DNA of 64,000 nt from Rhodobacteraceae bacterium HLUCCA08 (GTDB taxonomy: Bacteria > Pseudomonadota > Alphaproteobacteria > Rhodobacterales > Rhodobacteraceae): NCBI GenBank assembly GCA_001314655.1, contig LJSF01000014.1, positions 126,001 to 190,000 of the forward strand. Direction: 5' to 3'. Below are positions 41,676 through 47,413 of the stretch, piece by piece (the first letter of the stretch is position 1; the number at the start of each line of letters is the position of its first letter). Position numbers and translations under genes: made by a program. The notes under the pieces are model-generated. The model did not search any database. It worked only from the letters and a program-made list of their open reading frames with translations, and was not told the DNA's origin.

Positions 41676-42467
41676 TCAATGCCCCAGGATCTGGCTGAGG
41701 AACAGCCTGGTCCGGTCGCTTTGCGGGTTGTTGAAGAATTCCTCGGGCTCGTTCTGTTCGACGATCTGGCCCTGGTCCATGAAGATCACCCGGTTCGCCA
41801 CCTGTCGGGCAAAGCCCATCTCGTGGGTGACGCACAGCATGGTCATGCCTTCTTCGGCCAGCTCGATCATCGTGTCGAGCACTTCCTTGATCATCTCGGG
41901 GTCGAGCGCCGAGGTCGGCTCGTCGAACAGCATGATCCGCGGGCGCATGCACAGGCTGCGGGCGATCGCCACCCGCTGTTGCTGGCCGCCGGACAATTGG
42001 CCGGGATATTTCTGGGCCTGTTCCGGGATCTTGACCTTTTCCAGGAAATGCATCGCCGTCGCCTCGGCCTCTTTCTTGGGCGTCTTGCGCACCCAGATCG
42101 GCGCCAGGGTGCAGTTTTCCAGGATCGTCAGATGCGGGAACAGGTTGAAATGCTGGAACACCATCCCGACTTCCGAGCGGATCTTGTCGATGTTCTTGAG
42201 GTCGTTCGACAATTCCGTCCCGTCGACGACGATCTGTCCTTTCTGGTGCTCCTCCAGCCGGTTGATGCAGCGGATCAGCGTCGACTTGCCGGACCCGGAC
42301 GGTCCGCAGATGACGATCCGCTCGCCCCGGTTCACGGTCAGGTTGATGTCGCGCAGAACGTGGAACGTGCCGAACCACTTGTTCATGTCGGTGATCTGGA
42401 TGGCCACCTCGTCGGAGATCGTCATGTGACTGCGATCGACTTCGCGTTCTGTCATGAGTTCGGACAT
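41676..42467 (-). CDS. bztD: Amino-acid ABC transporter ATP-binding protein
   Basis: A 263-residue ATPase of the polar amino-acid (AapP/BztD/GlnQ) class: Walker [11 protein letters not shown]-loop in [11 protein letters not shown], signature LSGGQQQR, Walker [15 protein letters not shown], switch His in THEMGF. Last gene of the bztABCD operon. Confidence 0.96.
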
Positions 42468-42477
42468 GGGTGTCTCC

Positions 42478-44469
42478 CTAGCGATGCTCTCGCGTGAGTT
42501 TCTTTTCGAGGTAGAAGGAATATCGGCCCATCGAGTAGCAGAAGATGAAGAAGATCAGGCCGATGAACACGAACAATTCCCAGTAGATGCCGTTCCAGTC
42601 GGTCGTGGCGCGGATCTTGTTGGAAAAGTCGATCGGATCGGCGAGGCCGATGAACACCACCAGGGTCGTGTCCTTGAACAGGCCGATGAAGGTGTTGACG
42701 ATGCCGGGGATCGAGATTTTCAGCGCCTGGGGCAGCACGATCAGGCGCATGCTTTTCCAGTAATCCAGGCCCAGCGCGTCGCCGGCCTCGTATTGCCCCT
42801 TGGGCAGCGCGGCCAGCCCGCCACGCACCACTTCGGCGATATAGGCGGACGAGAACAGGGTCACCATGATGATCACCCGCAACAGCAGGTCGAAGGTGGT
42901 GCCCGGCGGCAGGAAGTAGTTCAGCAGCAACTGGGCGGTGAACAGCCAGACGATCAGCGGCACGCCGCGGATGATCTCGATGAAGGCGACGGACACCTTG
43001 TTGATGATGAACAGGTGCGATTGGCGCCCGAGGGCCAGCATGATCCCGAGCGGCAGCGACAGGATGATCCCCGACAGACCGATGATCAGCGCCAGAAGGA
43101 AACCGCCGAATTCGCGGCTGCCGACAGGGCGCAGACCGACGCGGCCGACCTCGGCATAGGTGCTGTCGATCGTCGCATTCAGCGTGGCGCGTTCGGACCG
43201 GACGTCGTTATAGACCTGGAGCGCCTCGATATCCAGGTCCGGGGTGCCATCGGGCACATTGGCGACATCCGAGAACTTGCGCAGGGCGCGCGGAACCGCC
43301 GCGCGCAGATCGGCGAAGGTTTCGTCGATCTCGGCCAGGCGGGTCTCGTTGGCCTCCAGCGCCTCGATATTGCTCACCAGCGACCTTGCATCGGACAGGC
43401 GATCGGTCAGCCGGGTGATCTCGGCCGACAGCGCCAGGCCCCGGTCCTTGATTTCCGTCAGCTGGCGCGTGGTTTCCAGAACAATGGCCCGGTCGGCCTC
43501 GAAGTCCGGGGCCAGGGCGGCGTCGCGCTGGGCGACATTGACCGAATGTTCCAGCTCTTCCTTGAGCGCGGTGGTCAGGGCGATCTCGCTGTCGGGGTCG
43601 ATCCCCGCCTCGGCCAGAACCTCCAGCCGTGCGGCCTCGGCGGCGGCGTCGGTGGCGGTCTTGATCCGGTCGAACGCCTCTTGCCGCTCGGCCTGGATCG
43701 GGGCGGACTCGGCGGACAGGGCGTCACGTTGTTCGGTCAATGTGTCGAGCTGCTGGCGCAGCGTGTCCGGCAGGGCCTCGGCCTGGGCCAAGGTGGCGTC
43801 CATCCGGATTTTGGCGACCATCCGGTGCAGCGCGTCATCCACCGCGCCGACCCCCCAAAGCCACCAGACGATCGCGGCCAGGAGCGCGGCGATGATCGCG
43901 GCCAGGTTGCCGGCGATCGGACGGATCACGACCAGGGCGGCATAGCCGACGGCAAGACCGGCCAGGACCAGGATCGGCGTCCAGAACGACCCGCCCCAAA
44001 GCAGCCAGGGCATCAGGAACGGGTAGATCACCGTGAAGATCAGCATCTTGCGCGGCAATTGCTCCGAGAACAGCACCGGCGCCATGGCGACGAAGAACAG
44101 CACGAAGGCCAGGTTCGGCCGCCAATACTGGTCGCTGGGGTAGAAGCCGTACAGCAGTTGCAGCCAGCGTTCCCGGATCACCGCCCAGCAGGCGCCGCCG
44201 CCATCGACCGCGCCGGTCACCAGGAACACCTCGCGGCAATCGGTCAAAGACCGCGCCGTCCAGACATAATTGGACGCCCAGGGCAGAATCGCGGCCAGCG
44301 CGAGATAGATCACATAGAGCGACAGGATCGTGAGGATCGCGTTCAGCCAGGACGAGAACAGGTTCTCGCGCAGCCACTTGATCACCCCGCGTTCGGCGGT
44401 CGGCGGATCCGCCTCGGGCAGCATCGTGTCGCGGACATAGGCGACGGTCTGGGCATGGGTATCGCTCAT
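42478..44469 (-). CDS. bztC: Amino-acid ABC transporter permease BztC/AapM with a coiled-coil insertion
   Basis: The 663-residue protein is far longer than the roughly 385-435 residues of AapM/BztC. Residues 1-205 carry the usual N-terminal helices and the DCREVFLV...[10 protein letters not shown] loop. Residues about 215-445 are an insertion of heptad-like, charged helices ([38 protein letters not shown]). Residues 450-660 are the intact permease core with [23 protein letters not shown], the EAA coupling loop. Placement next to a membrane boundary indicates a stalk or sensor, probably periplasmic; the side is inferred. GGAG-type spacing to bztB is one base. Confidence 0.9.
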
Positions 44470-44470
44470 C

Positions 44471-46261
44471 CTATCGCTCCTTCAGCTTCACGCGCATGTT
44501 GTAGATGTTCATCCCCATCGAGATCAGCAGACTGAGCAGAAGATAGAACAATCCCAACAGCAGCATCCCCTCCAGTTCCTTGCCGGTCTGGTTGATGGTG
44601 ATGCCGCCCAGGGTGGCCCGCACGTCCATGTAGCCCACGGCGATGGCCAGCGAGGTATTCTTGGTCAGGTTCAGGAATTGCGAGATCAGCGGCGGAATGA
44701 TGACCCGCATCGCCTGCGGCAGGATCACCAGGTTCATCGTCCGGCCCGGGCGCAGGCCCAGCGCATAGGAGGCCTCGGTCTGGCCCTTGGAAATGGCCAG
44801 GATGCCGCCGCGGACGATCTCGGCGATGAAGGCACCGGTATAGAGCGACAGCGCCAGCCACAACGCGATCATCGAATTGCGCACCTGCATGCCGCCCTCG
44901 AACCGGGCGATCCCGCTTTCGGTCATCTGCGGAACCGTCGCGTCCAGCGCGTTGCCCAACGTCGTCTGGTCGGACAGCACGTTGAGCGTGGGCGCGCGGA
45001 TCGCCGACCGCGCCTCGGCCGCGGCGTCGATGGCGTTCTGCCGGTCGACCGCAATCCGGTCCAACCGTTCGGAAAACACCGCCAGTTCGGCTTCCAGCGC
45101 GGCGCGGCGCTCGTCGGTATCGGCGCGGGCGATTTCTCCCTCGATGCGGTTCATCACCTCCCGGTTCTCGGCGAGGCGGTCATCCAGGGCGGCCAGGTCC
45201 CGGGTCAGCCGGGTGTCGAAAATGGCGAGCCGGGTGTCCAGCAACCGGTCGGACAGGGCCTCGGCTTCATCCGGCGCAGCGGTGATCATGTCGCAATTGC
45301 CCAGCGCCATGGCCCGTTCGGCGCCCCCGCGCGAGACATAGACATTCGACCGGAATCTGACGCCGGACTCGCCAAGGAAGCGGCGCAGATTCTCGGCCGA
45401 GGTCGAGGTCAGGTAGTGACACAGGGTCGGGCCGTTGGCCTCTTCGGTGAAGGTGGCGATGTCCTGTCCGGGCGTCTGGGTCACGGCGACGATCGCCCGC
45501 GGCGTGTCCGCGCTGACCGCCGAAACGACGAAATGCGCCAGGGTCACCGGCACGAAAAGCAGCGCCATGGACGGCCAGAAGACCGGCAGCAACCGCCCCG
45601 TTTCGGCCTGCACCTTGCGCACATGGCGGCGCCACAGGGAATTGGCGACCAGAGAGCCGATGAAGACCACGGCCAGAATCAGCGTGTAGCCGTTGAAGGC
45701 CGGCCCGGCGGTGAACACCCCCTGACGGGTCAAGGCGGTTGTATCGAACAGCACCATCTCTTCGCCGCCCCCGGTGCGGAAATCCCGCGGATGGGGGAAA
45801 CTTTCGTTCACCACGGCGAAAATCAGCACGATCCACAACAGCAGCGGCACGTTGCGGAAACCCTCGACATAGATCGCCATAAGTCGCGACACGATCCAGT
45901 TCTTGGACAGGCGCAGCACGCCCGCGATGGTGCCGATGATCGTCGCCGCGATGCAGCCGATGATCGCCACCAGGATCGTGTTGAGCATCCCGACGATCGC
46001 CGCGCGGCCGTGGGTGCGCTGACTGTCATATTCGATCAGGCGCTGGTTGATGTCGTATTGCGCGGGCTGGCCAAGGAAATCGAGGTCGAATTCCTTGCCC
46101 AGAGCAGCCAGGTTCTGTGCGGTGTTGTTGATCAGCCACCAGATCGCCGTGCCCAGCAGGATCAACGCGATCGTCTGGATCGTGATCGACCGATAGCGGG
46201 TATCGTACAGCAACTGGCTCAGGCGGAAACCGCCCTGCGGTGCGTCGGAGGCAATCGCCAT
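44471..46261 (-). CDS. bztB: Amino-acid ABC transporter permease BztB/AapQ with a binding-protein-like insertion
   Basis: The 596-residue protein should be about 400. Residues 1-245 match AapQ (RSITIQTIALILLGTAIWWLINNT, GMLNTILVAIIGCIAATIIGTIAGVLRLS, GFRNVPLLLWIVLIF). Residues about 250-460 are extra: 279-340 (TLCHYLTSTSAENLRRFLGE ... ALGNCDMITA) aligns without gaps to residues 145-206 of BztA, sharing TxC, NLxxF and GxCDxxT, and is followed by a coiled coil at 340-420. The permease core with EIVRGGILAISKGQTEASYALGL follows. Function of the insertion is unknown; a built-in docking or regulatory domain is one idea. Confidence 0.9.
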   Translation of the reverse strand: MAIASDAPQGGFRLSQLLYDTRYRSITIQTIALILLGTAIWWLINNTAQNLAALGKEFDLDFLGQPAQYDINQRLIEYDSQRTHGRAAIVGMLNTILVAIIGCIAATIIGTIAGVLRLSKNWIVSRLMAIYVEGFRNVPLLLWIVLIFAVVNESFPHPRDFRTGGGEEMVLFDTTALTRQGVFTAGPAFNGYTLILAVVFIGSLVANSLWRRHVRKVQAETGRLLPVFWPSMALLFVPVTLAHFVVSAVSADTPRAIVAVTQTPGQDIATFTEEANGPTLCHYLTSTSAENLRRFLGESGVRFRSNVYVSRGGAERAMALGNCDMITAAPDEAEALSDRLLDTRLAIFDTRLTRDLAALDDRLAENREVMNRIEGEIARADTDERRAALEAELAVFSERLDRIAVDRQNAIDAAAEARSAIRAPTLNVLSDQTTLGNALDATVPQMTESGIARFEGGMQVRNSMIALWLALSLYTGAFIAEIVRGGILAISKGQTEASYALGLRPGRTMNLVILPQAMRVIIPPLISQFLNLTKNTSLAIAVGYMDVRATLGGITINQTGKELEGMLLLGLFYLLLSLLISMGMNIYNMRVKLKER

Positions 46262-46359
46262 CCCTGGATCTCCCTGGTCCCGTGCTACGGTTGCGTGTCG
46301 GTTGATCCGACTACGCCCGAGGTCAGGATTCTTTTGATTTGGACTGGGTCCGCAAGCAC

Positions 46360-46387
46360 CGGGGGCGCGGTTTGTACCGCGCCCCCG
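46360..46387 (-). other. Strong hairpin between bztA and bztB
   Basis: A 12-base-pair GC-rich stem (CGGGGGCGCGGT with ACCGCGCCCCCG) and a TTGT loop, nine bases past the bztA stop codon. It has no U-tract in the direction of transcription. Such structures after binding-protein genes commonly protect that mRNA and give an excess of the soluble receptor over the permeases. Confidence 0.75.
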
Positions 46388-46396
46388 AACAAGATC

Positions 46397-47413
46397 CTAG
46401 CGGAACGGCGGCGAGTAGAGCAGGCCGCCTTCGGTCCATTGGGCGTTCAGCCCGCGGGCCAGGCCGATCGAGGTGTTTTCGCCGATGTTCTTTTCGAACA
46501 ATTCGCCGTAATTGCCGCCGGCCGCGATGGCGCGCTTGGCCCAGTCGGCATCAAGGCCGAGCATGGCACCCAACTCGCCTTCGGTGCCCAGCATGCGGTT
46601 GATCTCGGGGTTGTCGGTCCCGGCCGACAATTCCTCGATATTGGCCGAGGTCACGCCGTATTCCTCGGCCGCGATCAGCGCGTTGAGGGTCCAGCGGACC
46701 ACATCGCCCCAATCATTGTCGCCGTGACGCACCAGCGGCCCAAGCGGTTCCTTCGAGACGATTTCCGGCAGGATCACGTGATCGCCCGGGTTCTCGAACG
46801 AGGCGCGGGTCGCGGCCAGGCCCGAGGCGTCGGTGGTGTAGACGTCGCAGGCGCCGGCCAGGTATTGCTGCTGGGCTTCGGCATTGGTTTCGATCGGCAC
46901 CGGTTCGTAGCTGATGTTGTTGACGCGGAAGAAATCCGCCAGGTTCAGCTCGGTCGTGGTGCCGGTCTGGATGCAGACGGTGGCGCCGTCCAGATCCTTG
47001 GCCGAGGTCACGCCCAGATCGCGCGGCACCATGAAGCCCTGGCCGTCATAATAGTTGACGCCGGTGAATTCGAACTTGAGCTCGACATCGCGGCTGAAGG
47101 TCCAGGTGGTGTTGCGGGCCAGCATGTCGACTTCGCCGGACGCCAGCGCGGTGAACCGGGTCGAACCGGTGGTCGGCACGAATTCGACGGCATTGGCATC
47201 GCCCAGGACCGCTGCGGCGACAGCGCGGCAAACCCCCACGTCGAACCCTTCCCAGACGCCGTTGGCGTCGGGCGCGGCAAAGCCGACAAGGCCGGTGGTG
47301 ACGCCGCAGTTCAGCGTGCCGCGGGCCTTGACGTCGTCAAGCGTGTCGGCAGCGACGGCTCCGGCAGCCAGGCCGGAAACGGTCAAGGCGCCGAGGAGTA
47401 CGGATTTTTTCAT
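46397..47413 (-). CDS. bztA: Amino-acid ABC transporter substrate-binding protein
   Basis: A 338-residue periplasmic protein: signal peptide MKKSVLLGALTVSGLAAGAVAA, then the SBP_bac_3 fold with DTLDDVKARGTLNCGV, WEGFDVGVCRAVAAAVLGD, and the second lobe ATVCIQTGTTTELNLADFF...GACDVYTTDASGL. It matches the AapJ/BztA group that binds Glu, Asp, Gln and Asn. AGGAAGAGG lies before the ATG. Upstream 206 bases to the ATP12 gene hold the operon promoter, which I could not pin down. Confidence 0.95.
   Translation of the reverse strand: MKKSVLLGALTVSGLAAGAVAADTLDDVKARGTLNCGVTTGLVGFAAPDANGVWEGFDVGVCRAVAAAVLGDANAVEFVPTTGSTRFTALASGEVDMLARNTTWTFSRDVELKFEFTGVNYYDGQGFMVPRDLGVTSAKDLDGATVCIQTGTTTELNLADFFRVNNISYEPVPIETNAEAQQQYLAGACDVYTTDASGLAATRASFENPGDHVILPEIVSKEPLGPLVRHGDNDWGDVVRWTLNALIAAEEYGVTSANIEELSAGTDNPEINRMLGTEGELGAMLGLDADWAKRAIAAGGNYGELFEKNIGENTSIGLARGLNAQWTEGGLLYSPPFR

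Follow-up and report, generated by a model that had tools for sequence, protein, structure and literature searches.

The amino-acid permease BztB encoded in the window (the whole 64,000-nucleotide stretch of DNA that was analysed) carries an insert of approximately 185 residues containing a domain which is almost certainly homologous to lobe II of the amino-acid binding proteins of the AapJ/BztA type. The best overall explanation, to which we give a probability of roughly 0.5, is that this is a lobe captured long ago which has lost its ligand site and would now act as a structural or docking platform.

BztB resembles the AapQ/BztB permeases in that both the HEQRo_perm_3TM and the BPD_transp_1 domains were found, in possessing the extra transmembrane segments, and in the position of its gene within a bztABCD operon, the genes lying in the order bztA-bztB-bztC-bztD (Table 1). 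Ordinary members of that group, in contrast, are approximately 390–477 residues long and are without the lobe. Alignment places the insert after the extra transmembrane pair and before core TM3, just ahead of the permease core, as had been described in the initial annotation of this DNA. That annotation put the size of the insertion at approximately 210 residues (about 250–455, window 44899–45514), and while the large insert was borne out, its actual end is at about residue 432, the sequence from about GNALDATVPQM onwards being native to the permease. The loop that carries the insert is predicted to be periplasmic, on the basis of the topology of this class of permease and of a basic loop, RRHVRKVQAETGR, ahead of the preceding helix. 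Residues 156–246 (window 45524–45796), which comprise the extra transmembrane pair and a periplasmic loop, are hypervariable, with 33–44% identity and large indels, compared with 67–87% identity between relatives in the core, and BztC shows a similar pattern. The source genome also contains a second, more distant bzt/aap-like operon (L218, G000:C39:12500-20500), with an ordinary BztB-like permease of 392 residues and a long BztC-like open frame of 681 residues.

Table 1. Features of the bzt operon and of the BztB insert; positions are those of the window.
Feature	Position	Strand	Basis or remark
bztB, amino-acid ABC permease, 596 aa	44471..46261	(-)	open frame; BPD_transp_1 462-591; HEQRo_perm_3TM 89-151
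bztA, 338-aa periplasmic binding protein, of the family from which the lobe derives	46397..47413	(-)	
bztC, partner permease, 663 aa	42478..44469	(-)	
bztD, ABC ATPase	41676..42467	(-)	named from motifs Walker A, LSGGQ
Whole BztB insert (lobe and coiled coil), residues ~247-432	44966..45523	(-)	missing from ~400-aa relatives
SBP lobe-II-like domain, first part, BztB 247-333	45263..45523	(-)	profile homology to BztA/AapJ; homologous domain of L031 modelled and compared by Foldseek
Core match, BztB 276-337 = BztA 142-203	45251..45436	(-)	hhalign register
Coiled-coil helical hairpin within the lobe, BztB ~334-421	44999..45262	(-)	helices 330-379 and 383-422 in full-length model
Likely last lobe strand, PTLNVLSDQT, BztB ~423-432	44966..44995	(-)	putative; alignment with VALSDTI (coil-less inserts) and BztA HVILPEI
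Cys281 of BztB = BztA Cys147	45419..45421	(-)	Cys in 73/73 BztA, 16/16 inserts
Cys323 of BztB = BztA Cys189	45293..45295	(-)	Cys in 73/73 BztA, 16/16 inserts
Ala329 of BztB, in place of BztA ligand Asp195	45275..45277	(-)	Asp in 73/73 BztA, 1/16 inserts
Lobe II of BztA, residues ~125-232	46718..47041	(-)	segment aligned to inserts
BztC periplasmic coiled-coil insert, ~225 residues, BztC ~216-440	43150..43824	(-)	

The likeness was first noted as an ungapped alignment of residues 279–340 of BztB with residues 145–206 of BztA, having 12 identities in 62 positions, including T-x-C, N-L-x-x-F and G-x-C-D-x-x-T, and this alignment proved exact. As a pairwise likeness it is not significant, BLASTP of BztB against BztA returning no match in the insert; searches of Pfam (including the suggested SBP_bac_3 model, PF00497) and NCBIfam with the insert gave no binding protein above the curated cut-off, and phmmer of the insert against the PDB gave no binding-protein match. 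A profile of four inserts, made solely from permease inserts of several genera and containing no binding protein, was searched over 395 family genomes and gave a match at E ≤ 10 in 388 of these 395 Rhodobacteraceae genomes; below the permease inserts themselves, the best matches were bztA genes, aligned over profile columns of approximately 23–88 and mostly with E values of 1e-7 to 1e-4. A nine-insert profile matched AapJ-type proteins in 192 of the 385 alphaproteobacterial genomes searched (E ≤ 0.01), and all 55 of the non-permease matching loci examined by BLASTP were BztA/AapJ-type proteins. In the PDB, the top match of the nine-insert profile was 4z9n (E 2e-4, residues 132–186), the AapJ/BztA binding protein of Brucella ovis, in the register of the first alignment; the other substrate-binding proteins (SBPs) there scored E 0.5 or worse, and the lobe therefore comes from the AapJ/BztA subfamily and not from SBPs in general. 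Alignment of the inserts with BztA by hhalign gave the same register again, with an E value of 3e-6 over the core match listed in Table 1, and the insert profile scored 24.9 bits against the BztA of the window, compared with at most 4.6 bits for 200 column-shuffled profiles. The match covers lobe II only, and not the two lobes with a hinge of a binding protein.

The fold was examined in a model of the homologous domain from Limimaricola (L031), for which the insert of the window was the sole other row of the alignment, so that only permease inserts were used. This model has the strand–helix order E11-13 H22-28 E33-36 H41-52 E58-61 H65-73 E79-81, that is, beta-alpha-beta-alpha-beta-alpha-beta, with pLDDT values of about 60–82 in residues 11–80 and low values past residue 85. 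Foldseek comparison with 350,542 PDB chains ranked 4z9n first (E 0.009, probability 1.00), superposed at 1.4 Å over 50 columns, and nearly all of the top 50 were SBP folds, at modest E values; when Foldseek's own list was realigned with VIA-align, 4z9n had a Z of 7.8 over 78 residues, and the best rows, with a Z of 8.6, were likewise SBPs. A Z near 8 can by itself reflect a common arrangement, and we give weight to the fold evidence because Foldseek and VIA-align agree with the sequence profile. Thus, with modest confidence, the model points to an SBP-lobe fold in the insert, as had been anticipated. Because of its poor quality (pTM 0.26), a full-length AlphaFold model made with six permeases was kept out of the fold searches, only the order of helices and strands in the insert being used: in the window insert this is E279-283 H287-298 E304-308 H311-319, followed by the two long helices of the hairpin, which have pLDDT values of mostly 81–89 in this same model. 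Residues 247–333 comprise a lead-in and then a beta-alpha-beta-alpha-beta order.

Inserts that are without a coiled coil span approximately 115 residues between anchors, and since their last 15 residues or so (GNPVEFERPVLG) resemble native permease sequence (GRPVTFDSPVLG), the lobe is left with approximately 95 residues, which is close to the length of lobe II in BztA. The captured segment is thus nearly the whole lobe rather than the 62-residue fragment originally proposed. Beyond the end of the hhalign match, the VALSDTI strand of these inserts probably corresponds to HVILPEI of BztA. In the window, the coil comes after the last matched helix and before this final strand, and therefore sits within the lobe; a coiled coil had been correctly recognised in the initial annotation, where it was taken to follow the matching piece. 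It is missing in eight other lobe-bearing genera, and a shorter insertion occurs at this place in the genus of G350 and G784. The BztB coil was found in three genomes belonging to two lineages, and all three also have a coil in BztC, which is otherwise present in about one in six representatives; the co-occurrence is suggestive only. Related BztC inserts are scattered over 12 of approximately 72 family representatives and are of very unequal length (BztC of 512–790 residues, compared with approximately 430–446 without an insert), with a conserved C-terminal end (...TY...GrIGL.PV.SRef).

Comparison of 16 inserts with 73 BztA sequences showed that Cys147, Cys189 and Gly187 (BztA numbering), which are invariant or almost so in BztA, are kept in every insert. 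Thr152, Glu155, Thr194 and Asp195 are also invariant or nearly so in the 73 BztA, and the Thr and Asp positions among them are ones which we take, from related amino-acid SBPs, to contact the carboxylate and amino groups of the ligand; of these four ligand-site residues, the inserts keep Thr152 in two cases, Asp195 in one (G363), and Glu155 and Thr194 in none. The cysteine pair and the glycine being kept while the ligand residues are gone, the fold appears to have been retained and the binding site erased. Cys281 and Cys323 probably form a disulfide, and the inserted lobe presumably no longer binds amino acids, which tells against the sensing role put forward in the initial annotation. In six Limimaricola genomes, the insert had a pN/pS ratio of 0.60, compared with 0.17 in the remainder of BztB and 0.08 in BztA; the insert is thus under weak constraint, its ratio being below 1.

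The lobe is neither private to the source genome nor common to the family. The insert occurs in 10 of 395 genera, at one common site (besides the source genome, the carriers are Limimaricola variabilis L031 and G107, both Limimaricola, and G050, G332, G313, G273, G208, G350, G363 and G253), which rules out that it is unique to the source genome, and most relatives are without the region, which rules out that it is a feature of all BztB. The expectation that relatives of approximately 400 residues are without the region held for 56 of the 72 rows of the tree set, but not for the genera just listed; in the survey of lengths, most relatives had approximately 400–477 residues and no insert, and when 149 family genomes were searched, the majority of BztB homologues aligned solely outside BztB residues 248–447 or thereabouts. 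All eight genomes of the G107 genus (Limimaricola) and both genomes of the G350 genus (G350 and G784) carry the insert; in the genus of the window, three of the four sampled genomes are without it. No insert-bearing permease was recognised beyond the Rhodobacteraceae in a 385-genome sample of the class, where the 29 matching loci checked were all BztA-like. Of the 1,757 plasmid records that match BztB, none aligns in a single place with more than 80% of the permease, a result to be expected for ordinary AapQ-type genes. Longer BztB homologues of 457–477 residues also exist (L099 in G144, L201 in G128); the extension of L099 is acidic and rich in Gly and Ser, lies in the preceding periplasmic loop and is unrelated to the lobe.

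In a tree with the 73 BztA lobes, the 16 inserts formed one group (SH-aLRT 100, on few columns and long branches), and this single group, together with the single insertion site, indicates one old capture, which we regard as probable. The inserts are 14–29% identical to the BztA of their own operon, with no consistent preference for it, and since they are overall no nearer their own BztA than others, a recent capture from the local bztA can be ruled out. The proposal that part of a binding-protein gene was captured by the permease gene is thus upheld by profile and fold as regards an AapJ/BztA lobe, but the event was neither recent nor local to this operon. In a permease tree from which the insert was left out, its carriers are spread over the tree, and the well-supported branches require five or more changes. 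The BztB of the window pairs on this tree with that of G065, which has no insert, while its BztA is approximately 90% identical to those of insert-less congeners; this conflict of placement makes exchange of operon parts, together with losses, likely, and the lobe has likely been lost or exchanged often since its capture. The bzt operon (41676–47413) looks mosaic as a whole, the congeners carrying neither the BztB nor the BztC insert.

Tentatively, and by analogy, we assign the lobe a structural or docking role. Lobe II would have been captured once, long ago, into the loop that follows the extra transmembrane pair and precedes the permease core, and would have retained its fold and a probable disulfide while losing the ligand site. 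It may then form a rigid periplasmic platform beside the docking site of BztA, which might stabilise the permease or steer BztA, much as MalF P2 contacts MalE. The coiled-coil hairpin of the window could have grown from the lobe, and might conceivably be a stalk that packs on the coil of BztC. The reading as a platform is weakened by the fast evolution of the insert, which is at odds with a close contact to the highly conserved BztA, and by the many times that the lobe has been lost or exchanged, most of the sampled genomes of the window's genus managing without it. This fast change is what chiefly speaks against a tight docking interface, and it favours either a looser structural role or a tolerated relic, in which an accidentally captured and harmless fold, without a role of its own, drifts under weak constraint until it is lost. 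Such a relic, a possible account if on balance an unlikely one, would fit the high pN/pS of the insert, its scattered presence with at least five gains or losses, and the hypervariability of the adjoining residues. It fits less well with a pN/pS that is nevertheless below 1, with the invariance of the cysteine pair and the glycine in all the inserts, with the presence of the insert in every sampled genome of two genera, and with a reading frame that is still intact after such divergence from BztA.

A tethered pseudo-lobe that holds the docking place of lobe II of BztA, and that loaded BztA must displace, would raise the threshold for transport; the parent lobe faces the permease and the insert is tethered beside the docking face, but fast evolution ill suits a conserved permease-facing surface and we consider autoinhibition of this kind quite unlikely. 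An elaboration of this idea, in which import is gated by exchange of the tethered and free lobes at the docking face and the paired BztB and BztC coils hold the assembly together, seems to us very unlikely. That the captured lobe makes a working second substrate site, or a sensor, is highly improbable: homology to a binding protein and the ligand aspartate kept in G363 speak for it, but there is one lobe only and the four ligand-site residues are replaced in nearly all inserts. The probability of a chance likeness between unrelated alpha/beta segments, with which the empty pairwise BLASTP and Pfam results would agree, is negligible given the profile searches, hhalign, the shuffled-profile null and Foldseek. 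A further speculation is that variability of the periplasmic loops allows evasion of toxins for which amino-acid permeases are the way in; a literature search on toxin evasion by variable permease loops found no paper.

In ABC importers, binding proteins and permeases are normally separate, or else whole binding domains are joined to the permease. The insert shares with the AapJ/BztA binding proteins, such as 4z9n, the lobe II profile, the register, the order of the fold and the cysteine pair, but differs in being a single lobe inside a permease, in the loss of ligand residues and in the coiled coil added in some cases. MalF P2 has an Ig-like fold and is not known to derive from a binding protein or to have a coiled coil; its likeness to the BztB lobe is that of a large domain in a loop of one permease subunit (on the predicted periplasmic side in BztB). 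With GlnPQ and OpuA, BztB shares a binding-protein-derived domain that is covalently part of the permease. In those systems, whole, working substrate-binding domains (SBDs) are joined to the transmembrane domain (PMC11065425, PMC8025302), whereas in BztB an internal loop holds half of a binding protein, one lobe rather than a complete SBD and without the ligand residues, and a free BztA is still encoded. MalF P2 is a periplasmic domain of approximately 180 residues, which only some MalF proteins possess (PMC2246101), and MalE contacts the P2 region (PMC3150292). A literature search of limited scope found no description of a permease loop that contains half of a binding protein; within that scope, this arrangement, with the free protein retained, appears new, while linked whole SBDs are already known. 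If the lobe touches BztA, the selection and holding of a binding protein by its permease could be studied with a natural part that can be removed, and the presence and absence of the lobe within one genus (the window versus three congeners) and within one family provide a clean comparison.
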